A DNA stretch of 64,000 nucleotides from Collimonas arenae (GTDB lineage: Bacteria > Pseudomonadota > Gammaproteobacteria > Burkholderiales > Burkholderiaceae_D): contig NZ_CP013233.1 in assembly GCF_001584165.1 (NCBI RefSeq), forward strand, positions 1,798,001-1,862,000, read 5' to 3'. The notes beneath the pieces were generated by a model. It worked only from the letters and a program-made list of their open reading frames with translations, did no database searches and was not told where the DNA came from. Made by a program: the position numbers and the translations under genes. Of this stretch, positions 4,094 to 63,172 are shown piece by piece. The number at the start of each line of letters is the position of its first letter. The stretch's first letter is position 1.

Positions 4094-4715
4094 ATGGAAA
4101 TGACACAAGTTAAGCCGCGCAAGAAGCCCGGCCGCCCTTATCCTTCGATCGGGACCAAGCGCTTGAGAGTGCGATGCTGGTTTTTTGGCGGTTCGGGTAT
4201 GAGGCGACTTCCCTCAATGACCTGACGGCGGCGATGGGTATCACACCGCCCAGCCTGTATTCGGCGTTCGGCGATAAAGAACACCTGTTCCTCGAAGCGG
4301 TGGAGCGCTACCTGCAGAAAAAGCCTTGCTTCCTGGCGTCGATCTCCGCTGAAAAGCTGACCGCAAAGGAAAGCATCCGTAGTTATCTGGAAGTCATCGC
4401 CGTCTCGCAAAGCGATCCAAATCAGCCACCCGGTTGCATGGTGGTGACCTCAGCACCAACTGCACGGCAGCCTCTTCGCATGTGCAGGAAGTCCTGGCGG
4501 ATTATCGGGAACAGATGGAAGCGGGCATCCGCAAACGCCTCGACCGCGGCGTCGAGGAGGGCGATCTGGCTGCCGATACCGACACTGCGGCGCTTGCGAG
4601 TTTTTATGTGACGGTCATTCATGGCATGTCGACCCAGGCACGCGATGGCGCTGCGCGCGAGAAGCTGCTGGCGATCGGTGCGCAGGCGATGCGCGCCTGG
4701 CCAGAACCAGTTTGA
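4094..4715 (+). CDS. TetR/AcrR family repressor (two apparent frameshifts)
   Basis: Transcriptional repressor of about 207 residues once reading frames are joined. From ATG 4094 the protein begins with the typical basic leader (KPRKKPGRPYP). It then continues in the +2 frame as FDRDQALESAMLVFWRFGYE and the helix-turn-helix TSLNDLTAAMGITPPSLYSAFG. The frame breaks at 4144-4145 (TT for TTT) and near 4456 (CC for CCC), after which the ligand-domain sequence SSHVQEVLADYREQMEAG resumes to the stop at 4713-4715. Joining gives a normal family length, so these look like sequence errors. It is divergent from the RND pump and is its probable local regulator. Confidence 0.85.
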
Positions 4716-5100
4716 ACTGATTTTTTCGGCGCGGCAGATCTAGCCGCGCCTGCGTGCTTCCCGCTATCAGCCGTATCTACACGTGTATCTGCAATTAGCG
4801 GGGTAATCCTGCCACTTCCCTCCTTCAATCCTGCTCGGTCTTCGGCTTTGATCATCTGATTTTTGCCGGCGGCGTCACACATTTTCTGTCGCGTAGAAGC
4901 AACGCTGCTCGTTAGCCGGCTTGTCCTGGGCTAACGAACGTTCCGCTCGATGCGTGTCATTGCCTAATTCAATTCATTGCCGGCAAAGGCTGCCACGCAT
5001 ACCACACCAAACGAGAAATGCGGATGGCTGACATATGCCATCTAGGATCGCGTCCATTTGTAAGAAAGTGGCCTAGGGAAATGTCACGTTATTTAACGAA

Positions 5101-5130
5101 TTGACAATTTTTTTGGACAAATCCTATTTT
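5101..5130 (+). promoter_or_regulatory. Predicted sigma-70 promoter of the pilin gene
   Basis: A perfect -35 hexamer TTGACA (5101-5106) is followed, 18 bp later, by a -10-like TATTTT (5125-5130). It lies in an AT-rich tract and would give a leader of about 150 nt before the pilin ATG at 5287. The spacer contains an RcsB-like site, so a bound response regulator would contact or block RNA polymerase directly. Confidence 0.55.
5113..5126 (-). promoter_or_regulatory. RcsB-like box 1 (within the fimA promoter)
   Basis: On the minus strand this reads TAGGATTTGTCCAA, matching the pattern TAGGA-N5-CYGA shared by four other sites in the window except for one base (A for G). It resembles the enterobacterial RcsAB box (TAAGAATATTCCTA type). 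It sits between the predicted -35 and -10 elements of fimA, and the locus encodes two RcsB-type regulators. Confidence 0.45.
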
Positions 5131-5286
5131 CACAACATCACGCTAAAACAATACTTCGACCTAACTGAATGTCTGGCATTTCTGCGGCTGAAACTCATCA
5201 ACGAGTATCGACAGAAGTCATTCGGCAAAGCGATCCATCAGCCTGGATCTCGTTTCAAAATTGTTCTTACCAAGTTAAATTTCAAA

Positions 5287-5814
5287 ATGAAAAAATTAGT
5301 TGCTGCTACCGCTGTTATCGCTCTGTTCTCTTCTTTCGCACACGCTGCTACGCCAGCGACCGGCAATCCAGGCACCATCCGTTTCATCGGTGAAATCGTT
5401 TCCGGCGCCTGCGGTATTGATCCTAGCTCGCTGGATCAGACCGTGCCGCTGGGTCAAGTTCCTGCAGGAACCTTCAAGGCAGTTGGCGATCGTTCAAGCC
5501 CGGAAAAATTCGACATCGTTCTGACTGAGTGCGATACCTCGACCTACAAGAACGCGAAATTCACTTTCACTGGCACCCAGGATGCAAACGTGCCAGCCCT
5601 GTTTGCCACGACTGGCCTTGCCACGAACGTCGGCATCCGCCTGCAAGCCAGTGCTGGTGAGTTCCTCGACAACGGCAAAGAACAGGTGGCGCCGGTTGTC
5701 CTGCAAGACGGTAACAACACGGTGAGCTTCGCCGCAATGTACGAATCGACCGCCGCAACCGTAACTCCTGGCGAAGCCGATTCGGTTGCCAACTTTACCG
5801 TTGCCTACAACTAA
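5287..5814 (+). CDS. fimA: Type 1-like fimbrial major pilin
   Basis: Secreted structural subunit of 175 residues. The ATG at 5287 is chosen because it is followed by a clean signal peptide (MKKLVAATAVIALFSSFAHA, cleavage before ATP). The mature part has the FimA pattern: GTIRFIGEIVSGACGI with the first cysteine, a second cysteine in VLTECDTS forming the family disulfide, and a C-terminal donor-complemented strand ending in an aromatic (FTVAYN). A pilin with usher, chaperone and adhesin downstream makes a chaperone-usher operon. A strong terminator follows at once, so pilin is probably made in excess over the assembly proteins. Confidence 0.93.
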   Translation: MKKLVAATAVIALFSSFAHAATPATGNPGTIRFIGEIVSGACGIDPSSLDQTVPLGQVPAGTFKAVGDRSSPEKFDIVLTECDTSTYKNAKFTFTGTQDANVPALFATTGLATNVGIRLQASAGEFLDNGKEQVAPVVLQDGNNTVSFAAMYESTAATVTPGEADSVANFTVAYN

Positions 5815-5838
5815 TCATTGATGGTTGGTCGTTGACCC

Positions 5839-5864
5839 AAAAAAGGGGCACGCGCCCCTTTTTT
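5839..5864 (+). terminator. Intrinsic terminator/attenuator between pilin and usher
   Basis: A6 - GGGGC - ACGC - GCCCC - T6, a perfect stem with flanking A and T tracts, 24 bp after the pilin stop. Because the usher, chaperone and adhesin follow on the same strand with only about 36 bp to the usher start, it probably limits read-through and sets subunit stoichiometry. Confidence 0.85.
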
Positions 5865-5900
5865 ATCGAACATTTCAATGCTTTCTAAAGGGCATCAGTT

Positions 5901-8376
5901 GTGTCATATCGCCAGTTCTTACTTTTTGCCGCGTTGCTGTCGGGCAGCCAGGTCAGGGCAATCGAATTCAATGCGACGTTCTTGAACATCGATGGCAATT
6001 CCGATGTCAATCTAGAGCAGTTCGCGCGCGCCAACTATACGGTGCCGGGAAAGTATTTATTGGATGTTGCCGTCAACCGGCAATTCTATGCACAGCAATC
6101 GATCGAGTTCAAGCTCGACGATAACCAGCAAGACACCTATCCTTGCTTGCCGGAACAACTGGTCGCCATGTTTGGCTTGAAGGAAAAGATTTTCGCCGAA
6201 CTGCCGCGTACCGCGGTGGGTTCCTGCGTGCGCCTGGACGCGATGGATAGCGTGGTCATCAAATACGTCAAGAGAACAGGGCGTTTGACTATCAGCATTC
6301 CGCAGGCGGCATTTGAATACGATGATCCTAACTACATTCCACCGGCGGGTTGGAGCAATGGCGTTGACGGCTTATTGCTTGACTATCGGGTGATTGCCAA
6401 TACGCGTCGCTCAAACCTCTACGGCAACACCAATCAAGTTAATACGCTAAGCAGTTACGGCACTGCCGGCGCCAATTTCGGCGCATGGCGTTTGCGTGCC
6501 GACTACCAGGCGCAAAACAGCAGCGGCGACCAGAATTTCGGTTCGGACAATAAAGCCTTTCAATTGAACCGGCTCTATGCCTTTCGTGCGCTGCCGGGAA
6601 TTCGCTCCAATCTGTCGGTGGGCGACAACTATCTGAACTCCGATGTCTTCGATACGTTTGCTTTGCGCGGAGCGACATTAAGCAGCGACGATCGCATGCT
6701 GCCGCCCAACTTGCGCGGATATGCACCGCTGATCACTGGCGTGGCGCGCACCAATGCGACGGTGACCGTGGCTCAGCAAGGGCGTGTGCTGTACTCGACC
6801 AAGGTCACCCCGGGCGCCTTCAGCATCCAGAATTTGAACAGCAGCGTACAAGGGACGCTGGACGTGACTGTGCAAGAGGAAGACGGCAGCGAACAGAAAT
6901 TTACTGTCGCCACCGCAGCGGTGCCTTTTCTGTCGCGCCAGGGCGAAATGCGCTACAAGGTGTCGGCCGGCCAGCCACGCTTATTTGGCGTGCACGGTAT
7001 TACGCCGACTTTTACCACTGCTGAAATTGCTTATGGATTGCCGTTCGACTGGACGGTATACGGCGGCATGATTGCCGCTTCCGGCTATACGGCGCTGGCG
7101 ATGGGAACCGGGAAGGATTTCGGTGCGTTTGGCGCGTTGTCAGCCGATATCACGAATTCGCGCGCCAAGCTCTGGTGGAATGGACAGAACACTTCCGGTA
7201 ATTCCTACCGCTTGAACTACTCCAAACATTTCGATGGACTCGATACCGACCTGCGGTTTTTCGGCTATCGCTTTTCCGACCGCACTTTTACCAATTTCTC
7301 ACAGTTTGTCGGCGATCCGTCTTCCTATTCCTTCAATGCCGGCAAGCAGCGCTATTCCGTGGCATTGGCAAAGCGCATTTCCGGCGTGTCGACGACCTTG
7401 TCGTATGACCATTCGACGTTTTGGGATGTGAAGCCCACCGACCGTTTTGGCGTATCGCTAGCGCGCACGATTGCAATCGGTACGCTGAAAAATATCAGTC
7501 TCAATTTCTCAGCTTATCGCAGCAAGGATTACACCGGCAATACTTCCCAAGCCTATGCCGGCTTGACAATTCCGCTCGGCACCACGTCGATGCTCTCGAC
7601 CAATATGCAAAGCAGCAGTTACGGCGGCACATCAACCACCGTGGGTTACAGCGGTGATAACGGCGACGGTGTCAATTATCAAATGTACGGCGGTGTTGGC
7701 GCAAGCAATCCCTACATTAGCGGATATGTCGGCAAGAAGACTTCGTTCTATCGCGCCAACGCTTCCATTTCTGCGGATTCGAACATTACAGTGCCGCATC
7801 GGCGGAAATCGACGGTTCCGTGGTCCTTACCAAGTATGGCGTAACGCCGCACGGCAACGGCTCAAATGGTGACACGCGCCTGCTGGTATCCACCGATGGT
7901 GTATCGGATGTCGCGTTCTCCGGACAGGTGCGTTCCAATAGGAACGGCTACGCCGTGATCGACAGCCTGCCAGCATTTCAAGCCTACGATGCGCGCGTCA
8001 ATATGAACAAGCTGCCGCTGAACACGGATGTCGGTAATCCGGTGCGTCGCCTGGTATTGACCGATGGCGCCATCGGCTATGTCAATTTCTCAGTGGCGCG
8101 AGGTCGTAACGCTTACATCATCCTGTCGCTAGCCAGTGGCAGGGACGTGCCATTCGGTGCGTCGGTGCAGGACAAGACGAGCAACAAGGAGGTCGGTATT
8201 GTCGGCGAGCACGGCATTGCCTATTTGACGGGAGTCAAGAGCGATGCCGAATTGGTAGCCCGCTGGGCGATGACCAAGCTTGTGCGTTGGCAGCGTTGCC
8301 GCAAGATGACGGATTGACCGGGACCGCAACGCCGATAGCGTGCCAGCCTGAGTCGCTCAAGGAAGTGAATCGTTGA
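5901..8376 (+). CDS. fimD: Fimbrial outer-membrane usher (FimD/PapC family; two apparent frameshifts)
   Basis: Outer-membrane assembly platform of about 825 residues. The GTG start at 5901 follows an AAAGGG Shine-Dalgarno at 5887-5892 and a signal peptide (LLFAALLSGSQVRA). The N-terminal chaperone-binding domain begins EFNATFLNIDGNSDVNLEQF. The beta-barrel and the plug-region text GYAPLITGVARTNATVTVAQ are present. The frame is lost near 7785 and again at 8265-8267 (GGG for GGGG); after that the conserved usher end appears (RWGDDQACALAALP ... IACQPESL, two cysteines), with stop at 8374-8376. Adding two bases restores one ORF of normal length, so sequence errors are more likely than a dead gene. 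Confidence 0.92.
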
Positions 8377-8408
8377 AAATTATTGTAGAGATAGGCAGGA
8401 GCATTGAT

Positions 8409-9184
8409 ATGAACAGCAACACAAAAAGCAGCAACACAAAAATGATGAAAGCGAAAAACCAGATGAGGCATCTGGCAGCCAACCTGTTGGCCGCGCTGAC
8501 GCTTGGCTTGCCGCTGCTGGCGCATGCCGCGATCGTACCGGATCGTACGCGTGTTATTTATAACGAGGGTGAACCGTCGGTGAGCGTGACGATCAGTAAC
8601 AAAAATCCCAAACTCCCGTTTATCGCGCAATCGTGGATTGAAGATGAAAAGAGCGTCAAGATTACCAGCCCGTTCATGGTGTTGCCGCCGATTCAGCGGG
8701 TTGAGCCAAATGACAGCAATGTGCTGCGGGTTGTGAAGCTGCCGGGTGACACGTTGCCCAAGGATCGCGAATCGGTGTTCTACCTGAACATCCGTGAAAT
8801 CCCGCCAAAAGCGATGCAGTCAACTCGATGCAGATTGCGCTGCAATCCAAGCTCAAATTGTTCTATCGCCCCAAGGGTGTGCAAGCCAAGCGCGGCGAAG
8901 ACATCGGTTTGAGTCTCAACTTGCAGCTCGATCCGGCAGCAAGGAAAGTGGTCATTGATAATCCAACGCCGTTTCACGTCACCGTAGTTGGCTTCCTGGC
9001 GGGTGCGGAAAAAGCAAAAGTCGCGATAGATACGGTCATGATCAGCCCGATGAGCAAGGTCGACGTGCCGGTGAAGGACGCGAATTTCAGCAAGTTGTAT
9101 GTGTCGCACATGAATGATTTCGGCGGTCAGACAGACTCCGAGTTTGCCTGTAGTGCGAACCTCTGCAAGGGCGTGCAGCCATGA
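8409..9184 (+). CDS. fimC: Periplasmic fimbrial chaperone (FimC/PapD family; one apparent frameshift)
   Basis: Immunoglobulin-fold chaperone that carries pilus subunits to the usher. ATG 8409 has a good ribosome site (AGGAG at 8397-8401) and a long signal peptide ending LTLGLPLLAHA. Family signatures are TRVIYNEGEPSVSVTISNKN in strand A/B and the FYLNIREIPP motif in the subunit-binding cleft. The frame breaks at 8822-8823 (AA for AAA) and continues as SMQIALQSKLKLFYRPKG, the classic PapD G1 region, to the end. Restored length is about 258 residues. It overlaps the adhesin start by four bases (ATG 9181, stop 9182-9184). Confidence 0.93.
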
Positions 9185-10192
9185 ACGTAATGCTCCGGCT
9201 GACGCTGCTGTGTTGTGCCTGTTTTTTTCGCAGTCGGCGCAGGCGTTGCTCTGTAACTCTTTGACCGACGGTAGTTATCTGACCGAATCGATCGGTCCGG
9301 TCTCTGTGCCCGAATCGGTGCCGGACGGCACCATCATCTGGTATTCAAAAACCCATTCGGTTCCAGCCAAATGCTGGAAGATACGGGATATACATTTTGC
9401 TGAGGACGACCCCATTTATTTCTATGGCAATCCGGCAAGATTGAATACCCTGGGATGGGGCATCGAATTTGGCCTGCTGTACAAGGGCAGTTACGCTTGG
9501 GATGGCGACTGGAGTTCTACGCCGCGTGATGGCGTATTTACCGGATTTACCTCTCCCGGCTGCCCTGATGCCGCCAACAATGCCGAAATGCTGGCTTGTT
9601 CGCTGGTACAGCCGATCATCACATTCCAAGTGGTGATTCGCAAGCGCGGCCTGCTTCCGTTCCAGCGCCCACCTCAGGATACTTACGATGTCTTTCAGTT
9701 TGACGGTCAGTATGGGATGAACGGAGGTTCAGGTAATCCTTTTGGAAATTTCCGTTATCAGCTGAACGGACTGCAGAATATTGTCGGTACCCCGTGCACA
9801 GTTGACGTCACCGTGACGCCGGAGCCGGGTATCATCGATTTCGGTCAGGTGCAAAAGACTTCAACCGGATTTTCTCCGCCGAATCCGACCAAGCCGTTTA
9901 GCTTGTCGTTGGACAAGCAGTGCAATAGTCCGATCAACATCGGCGGCTATTTCAATACGGCTAACCAAAGCGGTAAAAATACTATTCTGCCTACCGCGGA
10001 TAGTCAGTTCGGTATCCAGATCAAAGATGCCGCTGGCAATCTATTGCCGATTAACGAGCCATTCCGCTGGCAAATTTTCCAGCCGATGTCAGTCACATCG
10101 ATGTGCCGTTCAGCGCAACGATGGTGCCGCTGGGCGATCCTCAAGTGGGGCCGTTCGAGGCGGTCACTGTGGTGCAGATTATTTATTACTAA
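9181..10192 (+). CDS. Fimbrial tip adhesin / minor pilin, two-domain (two apparent frameshifts)
   Basis: About 337 residues after joining frames. ATG 9181 starts MNVMLRLTLLCCACFF; a T7 run at 9222-9228 shifts the frame, and one more T would give the signal-peptide end SQSAQA. The N-terminal lectin-like half (about 20-190) has few family marks. The C-terminal pilin domain has a cysteine pair (GTPCTVDVTV ... LDKQCNSPI) and ends VTVVQIIYY, the donor-strand motif. A second shift at 10064-10065 (CC for CCC) precedes PLANFPADVSHIDVPFSATM. The position after the chaperone and the two-domain plan argue for a FimH-like tip adhesin; the receptor is unknown. Confidence 0.82.
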
Positions 10193-10498
10193 AAAAGCAA
10201 TTTTTGTTTGCTTTATGAGAAATTACCGAGTGTCGATGTGCTTGGCTTTTGACACCGGTCTTATAGAGGCACGCGAGAGAAATTGAGGTGTTAATTAAGT
10301 AATAATTAGATAATTTTTCGATGCGAAAATTGCGAATGTTAATTGTTGTATGATGACGGCTAAATGCACCAACTAGGCCGTTGTCTGAATCTGTTTTCTC
10401 CGCTTGCGTCGTTGTCCTTGCTCTTTAGGGGGAGAGCTGCAGGGACGGCTTTCGATAACCGGCATGAATGGCTATTGAATAAGGCGATTGAACACGTC
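10193..10498. other. AT-rich spacer between fimbrial genes and the first response regulator
   Basis: About 300 bp. Very AT-rich around 10285-10355, consistent with a promoter region for the regulator gene, but no hexamer pair with good spacing stands out. No gene or terminator hairpin was seen. An in-frame upstream ATG at 10364 precedes the regulator but has no ribosome site. Confidence 0.4.
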
Positions 10499-11194
10499 AT
10501 GTTGCACTCATCTACAAAAAGCATTCGTATTGCCATTCTGGACGATCATGCAATCGTCAGGCATGGCATGACGCTCCGGTTTGCCAAAGAGTCCGATTTC
10601 GACGTGGTAGGCGTCTACGCTACCGGTCGCGAGATGATTGAGGGCTTACGCAACGCGCCGGCTGAGATACTGCTGGTTGATTACTCTCTCGGGCCGACCG
10701 AGATCGATGGCATCAATTTACTTCAGGTGTTGAAAATCAAAGCGCCGGAGAGCAAGATCCTGGTTGTCTCGGCGCACAATAATCCCGCTACAGTCGAATT
10801 GGTCATGCGTGCCGGAGCCAAAGGTTTCGTTGCCAAGGCAGATCAATTGTCGACCTTGGTAGATGCCATCCGCTTGGTTGCCGCCGGTGGCATTTATGAG
10901 GAGGGGGCCGCGACAGCCTTGCCGGATCAGGTGGACGCTTCGACTTCAGCAGGCAAGGCGGTGACCGACTACGTTGTCGCGGCCGATGCGGGTTTAAAAG
11001 GTCAATCCTTGTCGCCGCGCGAGCGCGAAGTGATCCGTTGTTGCCTTGACGGCATGTCGGTAATCGAGATCGCCAAGAAATTTTCCAAGAGCCGCAAGAC
11101 CATCAGTACGCAAAAGCAGGCAGCAATGAGCAAGCTGGGCTTGCAATCCGACAGCGAATTGTTCGCCTTGCGCGATCGCGGCGAGATATTTTGA
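10499..11194 (+). CDS. RcsB-type LuxR-family response regulator, copy 1
   Basis: 231 residues with an N-terminal receiver (acidic pair at D15-D16 in LDDHAIVRHG, phosphoacceptor D61 in ILLVDYSLG, conserved K in FVAKAD) and a C-terminal LuxR/NarL helix-turn-helix. The recognition region (SVIEIAKKFSKSRKTISTQK, then AAMSKLG) is of the RcsB kind, where KTIS-QK-AM-KLG is typical, rather than the BvgA kind. ATG 10499 is chosen because the receiver starts directly after it. It is paralogous to the next gene. It probably receives phosphate from the hybrid kinase downstream and controls the fimbrial genes. Confidence 0.9.
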   Translation: MLHSSTKSIRIAILDDHAIVRHGMTLRFAKESDFDVVGVYATGREMIEGLRNAPAEILLVDYSLGPTEIDGINLLQVLKIKAPESKILVVSAHNNPATVELVMRAGAKGFVAKADQLSTLVDAIRLVAAGGIYEEGAATALPDQVDASTSAGKAVTDYVVAADAGLKGQSLSPREREVIRCCLDGMSVIEIAKKFSKSRKTISTQKQAAMSKLGLQSDSELFALRDRGEIF

Positions 11195-11265
11195 GCGGTC
11201 GAGCGATCTCAGCGTATACATGCTTAGTCGAACGGTAGAATATAAATTAATTTCCTGGCTGCGTT

Positions 11266-11279
11266 TAGGATAATTCCGA
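11266..11279 (+). promoter_or_regulatory. RcsB-like box 2 (between the two response regulators)
   Basis: TAGGATAATTCCGA, the best match in the window to the published RcsB consensus (13 of 14 positions of TRVGAAWAWTSYGR by hand count). It lies 72 bp after the first regulator and about 160 bp before the second, so it may mediate auto- or cross-regulation of the second regulator and the kinase. Confidence 0.5.
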
Positions 11280-11436
11280 TATGCCTTGTTTGTGAACTCG
11301 GGCAGAATAATTCTCATGGTTAATTTTTTGCAAATGGCACTGCCTGATATGCAAGCAAGTGGGGCGTCAAGACCGGAAAATTGATGAAGCGTCCGAATAT
11401 CTTGACGTGATAATGAGTTTATTGAGGAATTTTTAG

Positions 11437-12129
11437 ATGGATTGGACCGCTGCAAGGCCGCTCCGCATAGCACTACTGGATGATCATGCGGTAGTGCGCC
11501 ACGGCTTGATTGAATTGTTGCGCGCGGAGTCCGATTTTCGCGTCGTGGGCGCGTTCGCCAACAGCCGCGAGATGATGACGGCGCTGCGTAGTGAGCCGGC
11601 CGATTTACTGTTGGTCGATTATGCGCTGGCGCCAGATGATATCGAAGGCCTGAATCTGATACGCGCTTTGTGCACGCGTTTCCCCGACAGCAAAGTGCTC
11701 GTGGCCTCGGCACATTGCAGCCCTGCGACCGTGGCACTGACATTGCGCGCCGGCGCCGCGGGTTTCGTTGGGAAGAACCAGCCGTTGCCGGAACTGGTTG
11801 CCGCCATTCGCACAGTCGCTCGTGGGCGACTCTATTTGGATCCGGGCTTAGCCGTCGAGTTTGCCTATTTACTATCCGATGTCGCAGTACACGATGCGAC
11901 GCAGGCGGATGATGACAAGGATCCACTCATGGTCCATGTCGACTTGTCTCCGCGCGAGCGCGAGGTATTGCGCTGCTGCCTGAATGGCATGTCGGTTACC
12001 GACGTCGCCAAAAAATTCGGCCGTAGCGCCAAGACCATTAGCACCCAGAAACAGTCGGCATTTCGCAAATTGGGGATTCGCACTGATAATGAACTCTTCA
12101 AAATGCATCGTCAGCTAGGAATGCTATGA
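11437..12129 (+). CDS. RcsB-type LuxR-family response regulator, copy 2
   Basis: 230 residues, closely related to the upstream regulator: receiver with D15-D16 (LLDDHAVVRHG) and D61 (LLLVDYAL), then an RcsB-like DNA-binding domain (SVTDVAKKFGRSAKTISTQK, AFRKLG). GAGGAA lies at about 11425-11430 before ATG 11437. Its stop (12127-12129) overlaps the kinase start by four bases (ATGA), showing translational coupling, so this copy is the likely cognate partner of the hybrid kinase. The two copies could divide roles as homo- and heterodimers, as RcsB does with partner regulators. Confidence 0.93.
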   Translation: MDWTAARPLRIALLDDHAVVRHGLIELLRAESDFRVVGAFANSREMMTALRSEPADLLLVDYALAPDDIEGLNLIRALCTRFPDSKVLVASAHCSPATVALTLRAGAAGFVGKNQPLPELVAAIRTVARGRLYLDPGLAVEFAYLLSDVAVHDATQADDDKDPLMVHVDLSPREREVLRCCLNGMSVTDVAKKFGRSAKTISTQKQSAFRKLGIRTDNELFKMHRQLGML

Positions 12130-14506
12130 AGCGAAAGCTTCTTCAACTTCTGTTTTTCATTATCTCTTCGCTGTTTTGCCTGGCATCCGTCCAGGCTCAA
12201 TCTTCCATTCCCAATCCCAGTCTGTTTTCTGCCCAGGAGCGTGCCTGGATTGCTGCGCATCCGATCGTGCATATCGCTGTCGATCCGGATTGGCGTCCGC
12301 TGGAATACGTGGAAGACGGTCAGCACAAAGGCTTGACCGCGGAATATGTGGCGGCAATCTCGGCCGCCACCGGCTTGCAATTCCTGCTGGTGCCGGGTTC
12401 TGGCTGGAGTGGCGCTCAGCAGGCGCTGAAGGATGGCAAGGTTGACATGCTTCCGGCGGTGTCAAAGCAATTTGCCCAACAGAGCTTGAGGGATGTCGTG
12501 CTGTTCAGTGATCCCTATTTTGTCGGCTCCACGATCATTGTGACCACGGAAGCCGAGCCGATCATTTTCGATGCACGTAAATTGAATGGAAAGGTCGTTG
12601 CGATCAAGGGTGGCGGTGCCTACGAACGCTTGCTGGGTGAGCGTTTTCCCGGGATCAAATTGCTGCCGCTGCAAAGCCCGGAAGCGGTACTGCAGGCAGT
12701 CGTCGATGGACGCGCCGAGGCTGCGATAGGGGTAGATACGGCATTGTTGCCGTTGCTGCGCCGTAAATATCTCGGTACTTTGCATATTTCCGGCACCATC
12801 GGCGAAATGCCCGCAACGGTGTCCATGGGGGTGCGCAAGGATTTGCCGGAACTGGCATCAATAGTCCAGAAGACACTGTCATCCCTGACTGCCAGGCAAA
12901 CCGATGGCATGATGGAAAAGTGGTTGCAGGGTACCGATTACGGCGCGCCTTCGTGGCGCACTTTGCTGCAATATTACGATACCGAGATTCTATCTCTGGT
13001 GATTGCCATATCGCTGATCCTGCTTTTGGCGCAGCGTGCGCGGGTGGCTCGCCGTGCTGCGGTTCGGAGTGAGCGGGAAAAAAGCAAGTTCTTGGCGGTC
13101 ATGACCCACGAGATACGCACACCGATGAACGCTATCCTGTCCAGCGTGGAGTTGCTGCAGCGCTCCAAGCTGGACAGGCGGCAACAGGAATTGACGGCGC
13201 TGGCGGCCTCTGCGGCGGAAACCTGTTGGGTTTGCTTGACGACGTTCTGGACTTGTCCAAGCTGGAAGCCGACAAGCTGGAACTGGAAGAAGTGCCGACG
13301 GACATCGTCCTGTTGACGCAGAGTGCCATCGACATGATTCAGATCAAGGCGCAAGAAAAGAAACTGGCGATGCAACTGGATGCTCACATTCCGGACAATC
13401 AACGTGTCCTGATCGATCCCACGCGTATTCGTCAAGTGCTGCTCAATTTGCTGTCGAATGCTGTCAAGTTTACCGATCGTGGCGGCGTCACAGTATCGAT
13501 CAATCTGCAGAGCGAGTCGGTAGAGTCCAAGGCGATTCTTCGGGTCGCGGTTATCGATACGGGTATCGGGGTGTCGGATGATCAGAAAAAGCGCCTGTTC
13601 CAACCTTTTTCCCAGGCCGATAGCTCGACCACGCGGCGCTATGGCGGTACCGGTCTGGGCCTCGTGATTTGCCGTGAACTGATTGAAAAGATGGGTGGGA
13701 CGCTACAGTTGCAGAGCGAGGTCGGAGTCGGGACGTCGATCGCATTCTCTATTCCGGTGGAGACGCAATTATGCGACCCCGCGGTCAATCCTCCGGCAGC
13801 AGACCAGGCGTTGGCACAGGGTGGCGTGGCAACCAGCGCACGCCCGACGATACTAGTCGTGGATGATCATCCGAACAACCGCACAGTGATTCAGCATCAG
13901 CTGGAGGAGTTGAATTGCGACGTCGTGCTTGCTGAAGACGGTCCGACCGGATTGTCGCTGCTGGCGGCCAGGCAGTTCTCGCTGATATTGCTCGACTGTT
14001 ATCTGCCCGGGATGGATGGCTATCAGGTGGCAAGGACGATCCGCAGGCAGGAGGAGGGCGGTCAACGCCACCAGCCCATCATCGCGATCTCCGCGGCGGT
14101 TGACGAGGGGCATGTCAAGCTCTGTATGGATAGCGGCATGGACGGCATATTAAGGAAGCCGTTACGCCTCAATGAATTGAAATCCATCATTGAGGTTTGG
14201 TGCGATGTTGATATGGTCGTGCCGGAGCCAAGCAGTGCACCGCCTGTGTCGAGTGCGACAGAGTTGTTTCGCGACAGTTCACAACAGGATTTCTCCGAGA
14301 TTCAGCGCGCCTTCGACAATGGCGATCATGCGTTGATGGCGCGCTACGTGCATCGAATCAAGGGAGCTGCATTGATGGCCGGCGTTCCGGCGATTGTCGA
14401 AGCCAGTGAGCGGATAGAGACAATTCTCCGCGACGGGCAGTCCGTCGATGCAGAGAGCCTTGGCGCAGCCTGCTCTATGCTGGGCGCGCAGGTCGCACGT
14501 CTTTAA
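12126..14506 (+). CDS. Hybrid sensor histidine kinase, BvgS/EvgS-like (one apparent frameshift)
   Basis: About 793 residues when joined. Order: signal peptide (1-24, ending ASVQA); one periplasmic solute-binding-like domain (about 38-268); a transmembrane helix (about 289-302); HisKA with H328 in FLAVMTHEIRTPMNAIL; HATPase with N, G1 and G2 boxes (LLNLLSNAVKFTD, VIDTGIGVSD, GGTGLGLVI); a receiver (TILVVDDHPNNRT, phosphoacceptor in LILLDCYLPGMDG); and an HPt domain with histidine in YVHRIKGAAL. The frame is lost at 13219-13221 (AAA for AAAA) inside the HisKA dimerization helix and resumes as LLGLLDDVLDLSKLEA. BvgS itself has two binding domains and a PAS; this one has one binding domain and no PAS. 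It probably phosphorelays to the adjacent RcsB-like regulator. Confidence 0.92.
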
Positions 14507-14532
14507 TGTATCGATAGATTGCTTAAGTATTT

Positions 14533-14546
14533 TCGGACAATTCCTA
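14533..14546 (-). promoter_or_regulatory. RcsB-like box 3 (upstream of the solo transposase domain)
   Basis: Minus strand TAGGAATTGTCCGA, following the TAGGA-N5-CYGA pattern. It lies 27 bp after the kinase stop and about 145 bp before the next gene. It shares an extended context (TTTC-GACAATTCCTA on the plus strand) with the site at 35634, suggesting a common element. Confidence 0.45.
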
Positions 14547-14688
14547 TATTTCTTTGTGGGTAGTCCCGATAAAGTGCAAGTCCTGAACCTCCTGTTGATT
14601 GCAGCGCACCGATTCCATCTATTCGATCGCAAGCGATAAAGGCATGACGGCAATGGGGGACGGATAACATTTTCTACGGACTGTCACG

Positions 14689-15159
14689 ATGAATGAGATG
14701 CAGGAATACCAAATGATGCTCCGCGACGATCAATGGCAAGAGTTGGAGCCGCTGCTGATCGGCAAGCAAAGCGACCCAGGTGCTAGCGCCAAGAACAATC
14801 GCTTATTTATCGAGGCTGTCCTATGGATTGTGTCGAGCAATAATCTGTGGCGTCATCTGCCGTCTCAGTTCGGGAAGTCAAGTACGGTATATATGCGCTT
14901 TCGCCGCTGGAACGAATGTGATTTCTGGCGTCAGCTGGCACTGAACAATATCAACGATCGGGCGTTGCAGCAGATGCTTCAACTGATTGTCGAGTATGGC
15001 GATCAATACACCCGACGCATCGAACAGCGGCAGGCACGAAAGGTCCAGAAGGCGGTATATAAATCGGCAATCGGTGGAGGTAGCAATATAAGCCACATCA
15101 GGCAGTCCCTGCCGCCATCAGACGAATCGACCCTGCACTGGGTGGGACTGGTTTCCTGA
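14689..15159 (+). CDS. Solo IS5/IS4-type transposase N-terminal domain protein (DUF4096-like)
   Basis: 156 residues. Residues about 10-80 match the InsA/DUF4096 N-terminal domain of IS5-family transposases (LRDDQWQELEPLL, AVLWIVSSNNLWRHLP, VYMRFRRWNECDFW). The catalytic DDE part is absent; instead there is a Gln/Arg-rich helix (EYGDQYTRRIEQRQARKVQK) and a short tail. The frame is intact, it has its own strong terminator, and no terminal inverted repeats or target duplications are visible. It could be an IS remnant or a domesticated DNA-binding protein. The ATG at 14689 (or an internal ATG at 14698) is the likely start. Confidence 0.7.
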   Translation: MNEMQEYQMMLRDDQWQELEPLLIGKQSDPGASAKNNRLFIEAVLWIVSSNNLWRHLPSQFGKSSTVYMRFRRWNECDFWRQLALNNINDRALQQMLQLIVEYGDQYTRRIEQRQARKVQKAVYKSAIGGGSNISHIRQSLPPSDESTLHWVGLVS

Positions 15160-15193
15160 CGGTTGCAGCGGCCCCGATATGTCGGACGTGAAG

Positions 15194-15219
15194 CCCTCTC
15201 AGAGATGAGAGGGTTTTTT
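15194..15219 (+). terminator. Intrinsic terminator after the solo transposase domain gene
   Basis: CCCTCTCA - GAGA - TGAGAGGG followed by T6: an eight-base-pair perfect stem about 35 bp downstream of the stop codon. Confidence 0.88.
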
Positions 15220-15312
15220 ATTACTCCCCCCCATTTTTAGGGAACGAACGGGCGCAAAACACTATTTGATATAAATATTTGAGAAGGGCTAGCAAAAATA
15301 ATAAAGCGCGGC

Positions 15313-15318
15313 TATAAT
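15313..15318 (+). promoter_or_regulatory. -10 element of the tRNA-Lys gene
   Basis: Perfect TATAAT with GC-rich CGTCCCC just after it, 12 bp before the mature tRNA 5' end. A discriminator of this kind is usual for stable-RNA promoters. No strong -35 is seen at 17 bp spacing (TAGCAA). Confidence 0.7.
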
Positions 15319-15330
15319 TCGTCCCCTGTT

Positions 15331-15406
15331 GGGGCGTTAGCTCAGTTGGTAGAGCAGCGGACTCTTAATCCGTAGGTCGAGTGTTCGAGTCACTCACGCC
15401 CCACCA
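15331..15406 (+). tRNA. tRNA-Lys (anticodon CTT)
   Basis: A 76-nt cloverleaf: acceptor GGGGCGT pairs with the 3' ACGCCCC before A-CCA, which is encoded. D arm AGCTC-AGTTGGTA-GAGC, anticodon stem GCGGA/TCCGT with loop CTCTTAA giving anticodon CTT (15364-15366), and T arm GTGTTCGAGTCAC with the TTCGA signature. The gene stands alone between a transposase-like gene and mgtC. tRNA 3' ends are common integration sites, but no att-like repeat of the 3' end was seen nearby. Confidence 0.97.
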
Positions 15407-15416
15407 ACAAATTCAA

Positions 15417-15443
15417 AGCCTCCCGAGTAATCGGGGGCTTTTT
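15417..15443 (+). terminator. Terminator of tRNA-Lys
   Basis: AGCC(T)CCCGA - GTAA - TCGGGGGCT with a bulged T, followed by T5, starting 10 bp after the encoded CCA. Confidence 0.85.
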
Positions 15444-15465
15444 CAATTGTGCTAAATAGATGCCT

Positions 15466-15484
15466 TATTAGACAGTGTCTAATA
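15466..15484. promoter_or_regulatory. 19-bp perfect palindrome upstream of mgtC
   Basis: TATTAGACAGTGTCTAATA: two nine-base arms around one central G. It lies 23 bp after the tRNA terminator and 270 bp upstream of mgtC. The size and symmetry suit a dimeric repressor operator, or a relic of a mobile-element end. No cognate regulator is adjacent. Confidence 0.55.
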
Positions 15485-15753
15485 TCCGGTAGTCTATACG
15501 GTGTTTTCACTCGGCATTTAACCCCATTTTTACCTGACTGGGCATGATTGTTCCGTGCCAGCGGCACCCCACATAAATGTCCGTGGCGGCGTCGAATCAT
15601 GTCCGCAAAGCAGTTGGATCTGTTTCAGTGGGACGCCGGACAACACGTATCGGTCGCGCCTTCGCCCTTTCGGGTGTGAATCAGTGGCATGCACTTGAAA
15701 TTCATTACCTGCTCCCCGTTTCGGGGCCTTAAAGACAATTTGAACGAAATCAT
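15485..15753 (+). other. Long mgtC leader region with several hairpins
   Basis: About 270 nt without an ORF. Visible hairpins include CGCCC-TTTC-GGGTG near 15663 and CCCCG-TTT-CGGGG at 15714-15726, the latter 27 bp before the mgtC ATG. mgtC and related Mg2+ transport genes are often controlled through their leaders, but I do not recognise a known riboswitch consensus (M-box, yybP-ykoY) here. There is no strong Shine-Dalgarno before the mgtC ATG. Confidence 0.4.
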
Positions 15754-16503
15754 ATGAACATGCTTTTACTTGATTCACTGGCCGCCTATTGGTCAGCTCC
15801 CGAGGTTGCGGCTAATGTCCTGATTTTCTTTAACTTGTTGGGCGCCTTATTTTTAGGGATGCTGATCGGCTACGAGCGGGCATATCATGGACGCGCCGCC
15901 GGCATGCGTACCTATGGGCTAGTGTGCATGGCTTCGGCCGGACTTACCGTGTTCGTCGGCTATCCTGCGCTTTGGTATGGCGGGCATGTCGGATTGTCGC
16001 TCAATCCAGATCCGACCCGGGTGGTGCAGGGGGTGGTGACCGGCATCGGTTTTCTTGGCGCCGGCGTCATCATGAAAGAAGGCTTGAATATCAGAGGTCT
16101 GACTACGGCGGCGTCGATTTGGGCGGCGTCGGCGATCGGGATACTGGTCGGCGTCGGTTTCTACATCGCGGCAATTTCGCTCACGCTGTTATCGGCCACG
16201 TGCATGGTTTGGGTGGCAAAGCTTGAGAATTGGCTGCCGTCTCGTGCCGGCGTAGCAATTCTGGTTGAGTTCGAGAAGGGCTTTGTTCCGCATGAGGATG
16301 CGCTGCGTGAGCTGGCCATTCAACATGGCTATGAGATAGTCAAAGATTCCTTGTCCATCAGTTCGCACGACAGACATGCGAAATGGCACTTCATCGCGGT
16401 GGCGCTCGACAGCAAGAAAGGGACTTCCGTATCTGAATTGGCGCGCATGATGAATTCATACGAGGCGGTCGAGAATTTTGAATTGACCCATTGCCGCAAC
16501 TGA
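15754..16503 (+). CDS. mgtC: MgtC/SapB family membrane protein
   Basis: 249 residues. The N-terminal half has the MgtC signature: a first helix, then GMLIGYERAYHGRAAGMRTY, further hydrophobic helices, and GVVTGIGFLGAGVIMKEG followed by IRGLTTAASIWAASAIG. The C-terminal soluble domain (about 165-249) is of the long MgtC type. In pathogens MgtC proteins aid growth at low Mg2+ and modulate the F-ATPase; the role in this organism is inferred only by family. It stands alone on the plus strand with a long leader that may carry its control. Confidence 0.93.
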   Translation: MNMLLLDSLAAYWSAPEVAANVLIFFNLLGALFLGMLIGYERAYHGRAAGMRTYGLVCMASAGLTVFVGYPALWYGGHVGLSLNPDPTRVVQGVVTGIGFLGAGVIMKEGLNIRGLTTAASIWAASAIGILVGVGFYIAAISLTLLSATCMVWVAKLENWLPSRAGVAILVEFEKGFVPHEDALRELAIQHGYEIVKDSLSISSHDRHAKWHFIAVALDSKKGTSVSELARMMNSYEAVENFELTHCRN

Positions 16504-16740
16504 TCCCGGATTTCCGCTAATTGCAAGCAGATAGCGGTCGGCGCTAACAGGAGCATGTTTGACCTATAGGCAGGTGTTTGGCGCCAGTTTGCTGTGTTTT
16601 TACAACACAAGACGGTTCATGTCAGTTCTTTTGGATTTGTCATGTTTTTGTCACACGACTTGGTGAAAATCGGTGTGTACCCAGCGTGATTCGATGAATA
16701 GACGGATTGAACCGTCAATCTTTAAAGCAAGAGTGCCGAG
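16504..16740. other. Intergenic region after mgtC
   Basis: About 240 bp. No convincing terminator for mgtC was found. TTGACC at 16560 and several T-rich stretches could belong to a promoter for the small ORF at 16741, but spacing to a -10 element is not convincing. Confidence 0.35.
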
Positions 16741-16842
16741 ATGAGAACTTTTTTGCAGCTGTATCGCTATTACCGTAAGGGCGGCTACCGTGTGTTCCCT
16801 GCAGTAAAAAGGGCGAATCGGGCCTGGAACCACGGATTCTAG
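16741..16842 (+). CDS. Predicted 33-residue basic small protein
   Basis: ATG 16741 to TAG 16840-16842. The product is rich in aromatic and basic residues (LQLYRYYRKGGYRVFPAVKR), with predicted charge well above +8. The pattern 'LYRYYRKxGY...A.KRA' resembles short hypothetical proteins I recall from related betaproteobacteria, but this cannot be confirmed here. A weak GAG lies about 10 bp upstream. The stop codon lies in the loop of an inverted repeat (CGGATTC-TAG-GAATCCG, 16834-16850). It is in the 434-bp gap between mgtC and pstS, which otherwise holds no gene. Confidence 0.45.
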   Translation: MRTFLQLYRYYRKGGYRVFPAVKRANRAWNHGF

Positions 16843-16937
16843 GAATCCGCTTCAAATTTTCCCAAGGGGCGATTCGTCGTTCAACCCAGATGATCAGCAT
16901 CGATGGGATGATCGCGAACAATCATCCCCGCCGACAT

Positions 16938-43695: not shown

Positions 43696-43712
43696 GATGT
43701 AGGGCAGGGGCG

Positions 43713-48841: not shown

Positions 48842-50730
48842 ATGAAATCTAAAGCATCAGCAGTAAAGATCGGAGATTTGGCACTTCCGCGCACCTCTGC
48901 GTTGGCATTAGCGCTTTCCCTGGCATGTGCGGCACTCGGCGCGCAGGCTGCGACCGTCGATACGTCTTCTTGGGTTTCGACCAAGACAGAAGCGTTTTTG
49001 CCAAGAGTACAGACGCACGATACTACCGGTGCGGCGGTTACTGCGGATAAAGTCGCGGTGGATATGGCGCAGGGTGAATTGAAGAGCATCACAGTGAGTC
49101 TGCAATTGCGTAACCAGGACAAGCTTGAGAGCTTCCTGAAAGCGCTGCATACACCGGGCAATGCTTCGTATCACAAATTCCTGACCCCGGAACAGTTCGC
49201 CGCACAATATTCGCCTACCCAGGCGCAGGTTGATGCTGTCGTTGCGCACTTGACCAAAGCTGGATTCAAAAACATCAGCGTCAGCTCGAACCGCACGCTG
49301 ATCAGCGCAGACGGCACTGCAGCGACGGTGGCGCAGGCATTCAATACTTCCTTGAAGCGTTTTACGCATGAAGGTCGTAGTGTTTTTGCAAATGACAAGC
49401 CGGCGCAGGTTCCTGCCGAGTTGGGCAGCATCGTTGGTTCCGTGCTTGGTTTGCAGAATGCCGCGATACATCATGTTTTGCATAGCGGCGTACATGCAAC
49501 AGCGAAGACGATCACGCAAGCTGCAGCCGGCACGGAAACATCCCATACCCCGGTGCAATACCCGGCGATCTATGGCGATGTCACCACACCTGCCGCATCC
49601 ACAGCAGTTGTCGGTACGATTTCCGAAGGGGACATGACGTACACCCTGAATGATTTCGCCACTTTCCTCGCCAATAATCCGAGCCTGCCAAAACTGACGC
49701 CGACTGTTGTCTATGTTGGCACCGAGAGTTCCGACGAGTCCGGCGAAGTCGAATGGGCGCTGGATAGCCAAGTGATCTATGGCGCCTCCGGCGGCGTCAA
49801 GCAACTGATATTCTATACAGCGTCGTCGATGGAAGATGCGCCGCTGACCGCCGCCTATAATGCGGCAGTCACTGCCAACGTCGCCAGCGTCGTCAACGTT
49901 TCGCTGGGCGAGTGCGAGGCCGCTGCCAAGTCATCCGGTTCGCAAGCTGCAGACGATGCCGTCTTCAAGCAAGCTGTGGCGCAGGGGATCACTTTCTCCG
50001 TCGCAGCGGGTGATGCAGGTCCGTACAACTGCGATACCGACTCTGCTGGCAATCCGGGTGTGGCAAGGACTACCACCCAGAAAAAGACCTATGACGTGAG
50101 TGAGCCTGCCAGTTCTCCATATGTTGTCGCAGTGGGTGGCACGGCCTTGTTCACAACGTCGGCTGGCGCTTATAACGGCCAGGCAGTGTGGAATGAAGGA
50201 ACTGCTTCGACTGGGGATGGCACAGCGGTGCGTATCTGGTCCACCGGCGGCGGTTTCAGCGGCAATGAAGCGGCGCCAGCGTGGCAAACTTCCAGCATCG
50301 TCGGCACTGGCCACACCACACGCGGATTGCCTGATATCGTGTTCGATGCAGCGTCCGCCAGCGGCACTTACATCTACATCACCGCCTCGAACAACGGCGG
50401 CACGGCAGCCGGTGTAGTCGGCGGCACCAGCATGGCGGCGCCAATGTTCGCGGGTTTCTGGGCGCGCCTGGAGTCGGCGCACGGCAACAATCTGGGTTTC
50501 CCGAACTCGGCCTGTACGCAGCGATTCCATCTAACCCGAGCCTGGTTTTCCCTGTGACCAGTGCAACGGTTGACGGCGATGCAGTCAACTATACCGGTTG
50601 GAGCACGACCTATCCGGGGATGAAGGCGGCGGCATCGGGATGGAGTGCGGCGACTGGCTTTGGCAGTTTGAATGTCGATAAACTCAATGCTTACATTACG
50701 GCTAATCCAAGCGTTTTCCCTGCCAAGTAA
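48842..50730 (+). CDS. Secreted S53 sedolisin/kumamolisin protease (one apparent frameshift)
   Basis: 629 residues when joined. An extended signal region (ends LACAALGAQA, about residue 36), a pro-kumamolisin activation domain (about 45-215, with HKFLTPEQFAAQYSPT), then the S53 peptidase: catalytic E304 and D308 in GEVEWALDSQ, oxyanion Asp391 in SVAAGDAGPYN, and Ser530 in VVGGTSMAAPMFAGFW. The frame breaks at 50511-50512 (CC for CCC) and resumes ALYAAIPSNPSLVFPVTSAT to GWSAATGFGSLNVDKL. Sedolisins are acid-active extracellular endopeptidases. GGAATAAG precedes ATG 48842. Confidence 0.94.
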
Positions 50731-52248: not shown

Positions 52249-52915
52249 GGCCGGTCCTCCAGCACGTAGCCCATGCCGCGTACAGTGTGTATTAGAGGCT
52301 TGCCGTAGGGCTCGTCGATTTTGACGCGCAGGCGGCGGATGGCGACATCCACGACATTGGTATCGCTATCGAAATTCATGTCCCAGACCTGGGAGGCAAT
52401 CAGCGAGCGCGACAGCACTTCAGACTGCCGTTTTGCCATCAGATGTAATAGCGAAAACTCCTTGCTGGTGAGATCGATGCGGTCGCCGCCCGGGTTACGC
52501 GACGCTTCATGACATCGATTGCCATGTCGGCAACGTGCAGCATTTCGAATTCGCGGATTGGTCCGCGCCGCAGCAACGTGCGGATGCGGGCCACCAGCTC
52601 GGCAAATGCGAATGGCTTGACCAGGTAGTCGTCGGCACCCAGTTCCAGGCCCTTGATACGGTCTTCAACTTCGTCGCGCGCAGTCAGGAACAGCACTGGC
52701 GTCGCATGATTCTTGCGCAGTTCACGAATCACCGCCCAGCCGTCCATGCCAGGCAGCATCACATCCAGCACGATCAGATCGTAGTCGTCTGAGGTGGCGC
52801 AATGCAGGCCATCGGCGCCGTTGCGCACCCAATCGACTACGTATCCGGTTTCGCTCAATCCCTTGCGCAGGTATTCGCCGGCCTTGGGTTCGTCTTCCAC
52901 CAACAGGATTCGCAT
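52245..52915 (-). CDS. cusR: Heavy-metal response regulator, CusR/CopR-like (one apparent frameshift)
   Basis: OmpR-family regulator, 223 residues when joined. Receiver with acidic EDE ([16 protein letters not shown]), phosphoacceptor D51 in [14 protein letters not shown] and K in DYLVKPFAF. The frame breaks at 52489-52491 (one base missing in a CCC run, plus strand) inside the winged helix; restored text is [20 protein letters not shown], then [19 protein letters not shown] and the wing [11 protein letters not shown]. Coupled to cusS by a four-base overlap. It probably binds the inverted repeat at 52981. Confidence 0.94.
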
Positions 52916-61087: not shown

Positions 61088-61194
61088 GGCGCGTATTATC
61101 CCGGATTCCTTGTTAGGGCGCTTATCTTTACTCGCAATGCGGCCATGCGCCTGCGGTGGCGGAAGTGCAGGATGTAAATTTTCGTGGCCGAAAA

Positions 61195-61228
61195 TGAAAA
61201 AAGCCGTCCCGGTGAAGGAACGGCTTGT
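61195..61228 (-). terminator. Terminator after phaZ
   Basis: On the minus strand: AAGCCGT - 12-nt loop - ACGGCTT followed by T-rich sequence (TTTTCATTTTC), 33 bp after the phaZ stop. Confidence 0.8.
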
Positions 61229-61260
61229 GCCGCAAGTACATTGGAGCAGGATGAACGCGC

Positions 61261-62496
61261 TTACGCGTTGTCCTTGATAAATGTCGCGATTTTCGGGCAA
61301 ATCACTTCGCGCCAGCGACGACCGGAAAAAATCCCGTAGTGACCGCATTTTTCTGCAGTGAAATGCTGCTTCTTGGCTTTCGGGATGGAACTGCACAAAT
61401 CATGTGCGGCCTGAGTCTGGCCAGGACCGGAAATGTCGTCCAGTTCGCCTTCGATGGTGAACAGCGCGACGCTCTTGATATCCTGCGGCCGCACCAGCTT
61501 GCCTTCGACTTCCCAGGTGCCTCGTGGCAAGGCATGATCCTGGAATACGGTCTTGATGGTTTCCAGGTAGTAATCAGCCGGCATGTCCAGCACTGCGTTG
61601 TACTCATCGTAGAACTTGCGGTGGCTTTCCGCCGACTCATTGTCGCCTTCGCGCAGATGCATGTAGAAATCCCAGTGGCTCTGCGCGTGGCGGCTTGGGT
61701 TCATGGCAACGAAACCGGCATGCTGCAGGAAGCCCGGGTATACCTTGCGACCGAAACCAGGGTAGTTCGACGGCACACTATAGATGACAGTGTTTTCAAA
61801 CCAGCTGAACGGCTTTTCGGTGGCCAGGTTGTTGACATCGGTCGGCGATTTGCTTGGATCGATCGGACCGCCCATCATGGTCATGCTCTTCGGCAGGTGG
61901 CTGTCCTTGGCACTGGCCATCAGCGAAATGGCAGCCAATACCGGCACTGTCGGCTGGCAGACCGAAATCACATGCAGATCCGGGCCCAGCAGGCGGATGA
62001 AATCCTGTACGTAATATATATAGTCATGCAAATGGAAAGCGCCATCGCTGGCCGGGACCATGCGGGCATCGGTCCAGTCGGTGATGTAGACATCGTGTTC
62101 CGGCAGCAGGCCGCGCACGGTATCGCGCAGCAATGTCGAGTGATGACCTGAGAGAGGCGCTACGAGCAACACGGTCGGCTGTTTGAGAGCGCTAACATCT
62201 TTATTGCTAAGGGCTTTTTTAAAATGCAGGAGCCGGCAGAACGGCAGCGTCTGGGCAACCTCTTCGACGATCCCGATTTCCTTGCCATTGATTAATGTGC
62301 TGGTGATATCGAAAGCTGGCTTTTCGTATTCCTTGCCCAGCCGGTACATCAATTCGTAGCCGGCGGCGATGCGTTGCGAGAATGGCGTGTGCGCCAGCGG
62401 CGAAACAGGGTCGGTGAACAACCTGGCGCCGGCGTCTGCCCATTGCACCAGCGGCAGCATTAAAGACCGGTTGAATTCGTGAAATTGATAGAGCAT
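61261..62496 (-). CDS. phaZ: Intracellular polyhydroxyalkanoate depolymerase
   Basis: 411 residues, the normal size of PhaZ1-type enzymes. Starts [20 protein letters not shown]. It lacks a signal peptide, as expected for mobilising intracellular PHB granules. An alpha/beta-hydrolase with a Cys nucleophile (C180 in [13 protein letters not shown], replacing Ser), an Asp in [12 protein letters not shown] (about 353-354) and His386 in [13 protein letters not shown]. Hydrolyses stored 3-hydroxybutyrate polymer to oligomers. Monocistronic. Confidence 0.96.
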
Positions 62497-62714
62497 ACCT
62501 TGCCTTTTGGGTGGTCCTGGACGACAACTGCATAAAGTTGCATATATTGCAACGCAATAAGTGACCTATTTTATCTTATGTAAAGGGTTGCCGTGTGAAT
62601 CCTGTAGTCGGGTAACAACGGTATAAATAGAAATACATATTTGGCTAGGCTGGTCGCAAATATACCACTTGCCGCCTGCATATGAGCGGTAAGTAATAAG
62701 TACATGAGAAGAGT

Positions 62715-63172
62715 TTATTTAGCGATCAGGTCCGACGACATGACTGCCTTCAGGTAGTTGGTCGTGATATCGCCACGCTCACGCTGGGCAATCCACCAGA
62801 CGTTGCCCTTGCGGACCGACCATTCCTGCATTTGTCCGGCAATCAGCAAGGCGGCGACCTGGCCCAGCGTGGGTTGGTGGCCGATGATCAGCACCGGCTC
62901 GCGATTGAAGGGCCAATTGGCGACCGCCAGCAATTGTTCGGCCGAGCAATCCGGTGCCAGGTGAGGGTGAGTCTTGAATTTGCGGCCGAGTGCCTCGGCG
63001 GTTTGTACGGTCCGGGTGGCCGGGCTACTGATGATTTTGCAGCTATTGGGCAAGTTGTGATCCAGCCAGTCGGCCATTTTCCAGGCTTGCTTGTGACCCT
63101 TTCCGGTTAGCGCACGGCCTTCGTCCGGCTCCCGATTTCTGCCTCCGCGTGCCGCCATAAAATCAGTTCCAT
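62715..63172 (-). CDS. sixA: Histidine phosphatase SixA-like (one apparent frameshift)
   Basis: 152 residues when joined. ATG 63172 gives MELILWRHAEAEIGS with the catalytic His (RHA); the frame breaks at 63127-63128 (one C missing on the coding strand) and resumes PDEGRALTGKGHKQAWKMAD. Other marks: IISSPATRTVQTAEAL (phosphate pocket Arg) and VLIIGHQPTLGQVAALL (second His). SixA dephosphorylates phosphohistidine on HPt domains or PtsO/NPr. It lies 29 bp from ppk on the same strand. Confidence 0.92.

Follow-up and report, generated by a model that had tools for sequence, protein, structure and literature searches.

Most listed frame losses are private to this assembly

The chromosome of Collimonas arenae, a single closed contig of 4,723,987 bases (NZ_CP013233.1, assembly GCF_001584165.1), carries genes whose reading frame is lost through the deletion of one base, and we regard it as close to certain that these frame losses are consensus errors left over in a long-read assembly. 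We examined a window of 64,000 nucleotides of this chromosome (contig positions 1,798,001 to 1,862,000; G+C content 56.83%), in which a sequence-only reading had listed 21 such losses in 17 genes and had proposed the same explanation; coordinates below are those of the window unless stated otherwise. In comparison with other Collimonas, 18 of the 21, in 16 of the 17 genes, are one-base deletions private to this assembly, positions 8265, 9222 and 10064 falling outside the 18. Polishing would have called short homopolymers with too few bases, so that isolated single bases are missing chromosome-wide, and a loss inside a gene would break its reading frame on paper only, the organism's genes being intact. 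Accurate reads of the strain would be expected to lack the deletions. The feature is almost certainly a set of errors, i.e. a matter of data quality in an organism of ordinary biology, and it is the genome record that needs correcting.

The evidence from relatives is of two kinds. Syntenic regions were taken from eight Collimonas genomes and insertions and deletions (indels) in the window were put to a vote in DNA alignments, and as a second line the relatives' proteins were searched against the window with tblastn and the frame switches clustered. Gap placement is uncertain, since these relatives are only about 83% identical to the window. By the DNA vote, every relative that covers the site has one base more than the window at 13 listed positions (from 3/3 to 8/8), except at 22727, where the vote is 7/8. 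The sequence-only reading would have been contradicted by relatives with the same frameshifts; instead, at these 13 positions the covering relatives carry the missing base, apart from one of eight at 22727, against which the deletion is not seen. Frame switches were seen by tblastn in all eight relatives at 22156, 24480, 24939, 28759 and 39533. The claim that parE and kbl are hit therefore stood firm, with 8/8 by DNA and 8/8 by tblastn at 39533 (parE) and at 24480 and 24939 (kbl).

Other listed positions were judged on proteins. At 34836 the frame switches in both of the relatives that align there, and at 50511 in intact homologues at five of five loci. At 13219 it switches in the sole close homologue (L283, 804 amino acids, 64% identical), the other homologues of that gene, at most 40% identical, having been left out. 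At 7785 and 8822 the frame changes relative to intact ushers and chaperones, which are 27-43% identical and come from 10 of 11 Collimonas loci; the same points also interrupt the Pfam domains Usher and PapD. At 10064 a Fimbrial domain stops mid-profile, and two pieces in other frames that were tried gave no continuation. Overall, tblastn produced 30 clusters of frame switches in the window, of which 13 match listed sites; the remaining 17 are supported by one or two relatives each (four at 25151) and resemble the ends of genes or antisense open reading frames (ORFs).

The statement that none of the changes is an insertion held for the coding DNA of the window, as none of six supported one-base insertions breaks a conserved gene. 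These six (2359, 23180, 23930, 26110, 31803 and 47242, each with at least 60% support in the DNA vote) either lie outside conserved gene starts (2359, 23930, 47242), or beyond the aligned ends of flanking genes (23180, 31803), or, at 26110, within a gene that aligns at protein level without a frame change as far as its end. Seven more one-base deletions came out of the DNA vote (3497, 3636, 21745, 26198, 41403, 47960 and 61206); by reading, they are non-genic, beside a compensating indel, or weakly supported. The sequence-only reading also expected automatic annotation to call the broken genes pseudogenes. This does not extend to 22727 and 43680, where the break falls within the first codons of the gene, so that annotation would still record a gene product, shortened or with a new start.

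Deletions outnumber insertions in distant parts of the chromosome

To see whether the pattern exceeds chance and whether it is local, we took each genome in turn as the subject of a unanimous vote, in the window and in two distant areas of the chromosome (300001-460000 and 3300001-3460000), using five of the eight fetched relatives for the window and four for each other area. Alignments shorter than 400 bases or below 70% identity were rejected, as were sites where the vote was split or came from under three relatives; 22727, 34836, 50511 and the fimbrial island described below are thus outside these counts. Compensating deletion/insertion pairs within 20 bases were removed (four of each in this genome, three of each in the relatives). 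The private, unpaired one-base coding indels that remained in this assembly are 41 deletions and four insertions in 217.8 kb (binomial P 9e-9), compared with 16 deletions and 10 insertions in 1,078 kb for six relatives pooled, so that the deletion rate per kb is 12.7-fold above that of the relatives. The deletions are spread over all three areas: the window has 12, at a coding density of 0.31 per kb, and the two others have 13 and 16, at 0.18 and 0.15 per kb. The higher density of the window is not a clear difference (P 0.06). A 5.6-Mb relative, G012, shows the same bias at a lower rate, with eight deletions and no insertions.

The deletions were said to lie nearly all in homopolymers. This was true of all 12 losses in ribosomal RNA (rRNA, see below), for which the correct letters are known, whereas in coding DNA about two thirds touch a run of at least three, and since the coding comparison is made at about 83% identity, "nearly all" overstates what can be demonstrated. 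Among the 12 unanimous coding deletions of the window, nine coincide with a remaining run of at least three or come within two bases of one, and three touch shorter runs only. Over the three areas 25-27 of the 41 coding sites touch such a run, as against 16-39% of random positions (margins of 1-5 bases). The runs touched are of G or C at 27 of the 41 coding sites and 10 of the 12 rRNA sites.

Losses private to single rRNA copies

The rRNA copies of a genome can be checked against each other, a simple internal control for which neither relatives nor reads are required. When the three rRNA operons of the chromosome were aligned with each other, substitutions were confined to the leader upstream of the 16S gene. 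From the 16S gene onward there are 12 one-base losses and no insertions, all in runs of 3-6, and the only substitution column is part of two adjacent losses; if such rRNA losses were real, one would expect substitutions beside them. Five losses are in 16S: a single copy has three, and two copies lack one base each at a run of six G, a length compared with that in G003; one of the 16S losses falls in a GACGGGG region that we take to be nearly universal. One is at the 5' end of a spacer transfer RNA (tRNA) gene, lowering its Rfam score from 63.7 to 56.5 bits, and the other six are in 23S. The density over the three operons is 0.69 losses per kb.

An alignment of 18 copies of 23S gave six copy-private losses for this assembly; G012 had two and G005 one, and there were none in G003, G006 or G008. 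G012 (copies L186, L192 and L196) and G005 (L187, L191 and L199) are themselves closed Collimonas assemblies, and their losses hint at a milder form of the same error.

Essential genes are hit

The two areas outside the window contain 29 of the deletion sites. Of these, 26 lie in a split counterpart of some G003 ORF and the other three do not; a few of those G003 ORFs may be antisense or spurious. Named genes hit there include rpoC, secY, a PBP1A-family protein, a FadJ/FadB-like protein, RutG and exodeoxyribonuclease I; at the strict match limit two of eight query proteins were unmatched besides secY, which was named by a separate comparison. secY, rpoC and parE are essential genes. There is one secY locus genome-wide, and it is split over three frames by two losses, in pieces 90-99% identical to a relative. 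Likewise rpoC has one match genome-wide, in which 1,373 residues are 100% (rounded) identical to a relative and the last ~38 residues are shifted.

Of the genes here 15-29% are split, compared with 1-15% in other genomes. With G003 and G005 as references in turn, the mean identity of split versus intact genes is 89.2 vs 87.3 and 88.3 vs 85.7 in the window, 89.7 vs 87.1 and 84.7 vs 90.4 in one of the other areas (A), and 86.4 vs 84.5 and 82.1 vs 85.0 in the other (B). Split genes are thus 82-90% identical and intact ones 85-90%, the split genes being higher in four of six comparisons. Selection on the split genes is not clearly relaxed, though two comparisons go the opposite way.

Weighing real mutation against assembly error

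The sequence-only reading's attribution to consensus error is supported by the one-base size of the changes, the 41:4 bias towards deletion, the association with runs, the spread over the chromosome, the breaks in secY and rpoC and the rRNA losses private to single copies. Several observations nevertheless pull the other way. About a third of the 41 coding sites have no clear homopolymer, and four unpaired insertions are present, one of which (23930) is outside any conserved gene. Private in-frame indels, which may serve as a yardstick of branch length, number 10 in 217.8 kb here versus 19 in 1,078 kb for the relatives, a 2.6-fold rise that stays far short of the 12.7-fold excess of one-base deletions, though the branch of this genome may be longer. 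Split genes are the less conserved ones in the two comparisons just mentioned (84.7 vs 90.4; 82.1 vs 85.0). In-frame stops, with reference G003, number 69 per 68,143 amino acids here versus 65 per 98,025 in G005; with reference G005 they are not raised (23 per 67,043 here versus 38 per 100,205 in G003), and we give the count little weight, as it is noisy and some reference ORFs are spurious. One 23S loss occurs in all three copies here and in no relative, which is probably a real lineage difference. Finally, a simple ORF caller gave G008 a lowish mean ORF as well, of 924 nt.

One may consider that this lineage is losing genes and that the frameshifts are fixed mutations. Its genome, at 4.72 Mb, is below the size of most genomes listed for the genus; it has somewhat more private indels of every kind, and one of the two references gives a somewhat raised count of in-frame stops. 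However, such pseudogenisation would be expected to spare essential single-copy genes, and the only secY locus is split; rpoC, parE and copy-private rRNA positions are hit as well, split genes keep similar identity, and deletions exceed insertions 41:4. We consider it extremely improbable. A real mutator lineage, e.g. one that lost mismatch repair and shortens short homopolymers, would account for the run association and for the presence of losses in all three areas. Slippage mutators are expected to act mostly on longer runs, inserting as well as deleting, whereas here the rRNA runs are only 3-6 long and insertions are rare (41:4), and again the sole secY locus is broken, so this explanation too is very unlikely. 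Real frameshifts bypassed by efficient ribosomal or transcriptional slippage would allow shifts in essential genes, with nothing direct in favour of this. No common slippery motif was apparent by eye in the sequence contexts, and no such rescue is possible for rRNA, where 12 equivalent losses occur; tolerance of frameshifts leaves these unexplained, and its probability is negligible.

Consensus error also fits what has been published on C. arenae, provided that the present record is strain Ter10, as its ORF lengths would suggest. In the paper on that strain, Ter10 and Ter282 are given as 4.7 Mb with 56.8% G+C, Ter10 being one contig (PMC4690342). Each strain was sequenced on one PacBio RS II cell and assembled with HGAP3, with Quiver making the last correction. 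The Illumina reads, of 2 x 51 bp for Ter10, went into a separate Ray assembly, and polishing with them goes unmentioned in the passages on the assembly, though a "combined strategy" is claimed (PMC4690342). Table 1 there lists for Ter10 a mean coding sequence of 834 nt and 78.4% coding, for Ter282 899 nt and 85.4%, and for other strains means of 904-927 nt (PMC4690342); the average nucleotide identity of Ter10 and Ter282, the latter recorded as CP013235, is 99.97%. Ter10 thus resembles the present record in size, G+C, single contig, short mean coding sequence and low coding fraction, the last two as fragmentation predicts; section 5 of the paper gives these figures without remark on error, and that its genome is the one containing our window is our inference.

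Our simple ORF caller gave a mean ORF of 901 nt for this genome versus 981 nt for G003, 1,002 nt for G012 and 986 nt for G005, a ratio of ~0.91. If G003, G012 and G005 are the counterparts of Ter331, Ter6 and Ter91, as we infer, the matching published ratio (834 nt over the mean of those three strains) is also 0.91, so that the published table already carries the signature; Ter282 gives 0.98. Among titles and abstract openings in the literature on Collimonas, with subscription papers mostly outside this scope, no paper noting the defect came up.

Similar defects are described elsewhere. For long-read bacterial assemblies, the Kastor paper ties deletions to homopolymers of two to eight and reports that they fragment genes, and in one example fewer than 2,000 indels were involved and pseudogenes fell from 23.3% before correction to 5.6% after it (PMC12007338). 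In that example A/T runs were the commonest, in contrast to the G or C runs seen here, where the source would be PacBio RS II. NCBI's label "many frameshifted proteins" denotes the same symptom and was given to a type-strain assembly, which is a different assembly from the present one (PMC10228379).

Extrapolation from 0.19-0.69 losses per kb gives ~900-3,200 errors chromosome-wide. In the genome collection used, this record is the one that stands for its species, and if it is Ter10 it comes from a type strain, DSM 21398. Until it is corrected, gene-content comparisons, pseudogene counts and trait inferences that draw on it are unreliable.

A fimbrial island with many breaks

The stretch 4713-18293 adjoins tRNA-Lys(CTT) (15331-15406) and contains a chaperone-usher fimbrial cluster, two LuxR-type response regulators and an EvgS/BvgS-type kinase. 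It is almost without DNA match in the syntenic regions of the eight relatives, and is therefore probably a lineage-specific island. Six listed breaks fall in ~5.4 kb of it (7785-13219), compared with 1.0-3.7 expected from the coding and rRNA rates, an excess that is itself uncertain, as three of the six are unconfirmed. Conceivably most breaks in the window are errors and some in the island are real, reflecting decay of an island that has no close relatives; we think this improbable.

A megablast search of 25 kb (4001-29000) against phages and plasmids returned only tRNA-Lys matches and short, distant ones. As to the genus itself, Collimonas are mostly soil bacteria that feed on fungi (PMC4690342). 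The window's parE product is 97% identical to that of Collimonas sp. OK307, and its parC DNA has 85-87% identity with 14 same-genus genomes. One same-genus genome (G001) with parC at 87% has only ~1.7 Mb in 130 contigs, is reported 99% complete, and is possibly a reduced Collimonas relative.

Affected genes of the window

The first affected gene, for a TetR-family regulator (4094-4712, plus strand), is broken at ~4137 and ~4453, with DNA votes of 3/3 at both, tblastn switches, and Pfam TetR_N on the intact relative. The four island genes that follow are all on the plus strand. In the outer membrane usher (5901-8317, break ~7785) the Usher domain extends over two frames, and 8265 is also listed. 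In the pilus chaperone (8373-9184, break ~8822, with listed position 9222 just downstream) PapD_N and PapD_C are in separate frames. The fimbrial subunit or adhesin (9114-10286) is the gene of the unconfirmed break at 10064, near which its Fimbrial domain ends at profile position 106 of 151. In the hybrid sensor kinase (12096-14506, break ~13219) HisKA is cut at 49 of 66 and HATPase is in another frame.

Further along the plus strand, a short-chain dehydrogenase/reductase (SDR) oxidoreductase (21748-22496) is broken at ~22156 (DNA 8/8; NCBIfam match on the intact relative). A glycine-zipper protein (22705-23172) is broken at about codon 8, ~22727, its alignment starting from residue 8 (Pfam on the intact relative). 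kbl, encoding glycine C-acetyltransferase (23951-25186), has its two breaks at ~24480 and ~24939, and the intact relative matches TIGR01822 (NCBIfam). An EamA-family transporter (30866-31755) is broken near its start, at ~30917 (DNA 8/8; switch in four relatives; Pfam EamA on the intact relative), and a GntG-like pyridoxal phosphate-dependent aldolase (33757-34919; NCBIfam) at ~34836.

On the minus strand, a MocR/PdxR-like regulator (28327-29789; NCBIfam) is broken at ~28759 (DNA 8/8), both pieces having 96% identity to its G003 counterpart. parE, encoding topoisomerase IV subunit B (39317-41301; TIGR01055), loses its last ~72 residues at ~39533, its pieces being 96-98% identical. A VWA/CoxE-like protein (42527-43696; Pfam) is broken at about codon 5, ~43680 (DNA 8/8), residues 5-389 lying in one frame in comparison with all eight relatives. 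The neighbouring MoxR/MadB-like AAA ATPase (43697-44665, the low end being approximate; Pfam AAA_5 and NCBIfam) is broken at ~43795 (DNA 8/8). A response regulator upstream of a heavy-metal sensor kinase (52439-52915; Pfam Response_reg) is broken at ~52489 (DNA 6/6; tblastn in six relatives), and a SixA-like phosphohistidine phosphatase (62715-63172; NCBIfam and Pfam) at ~63127 (DNA 7/7; tblastn in two relatives).

Finally, a sedolisin/pro-kumamolisin-type peptidase (48656-50727, plus strand; Pro-kuma_activ) is broken at ~50511, the five intact homologues switching at 50494-50512. Its segment has no DNA alignment of at least 300 bases in the eight syntenic regions; homologues 85-87% identical are located elsewhere in five relatives.

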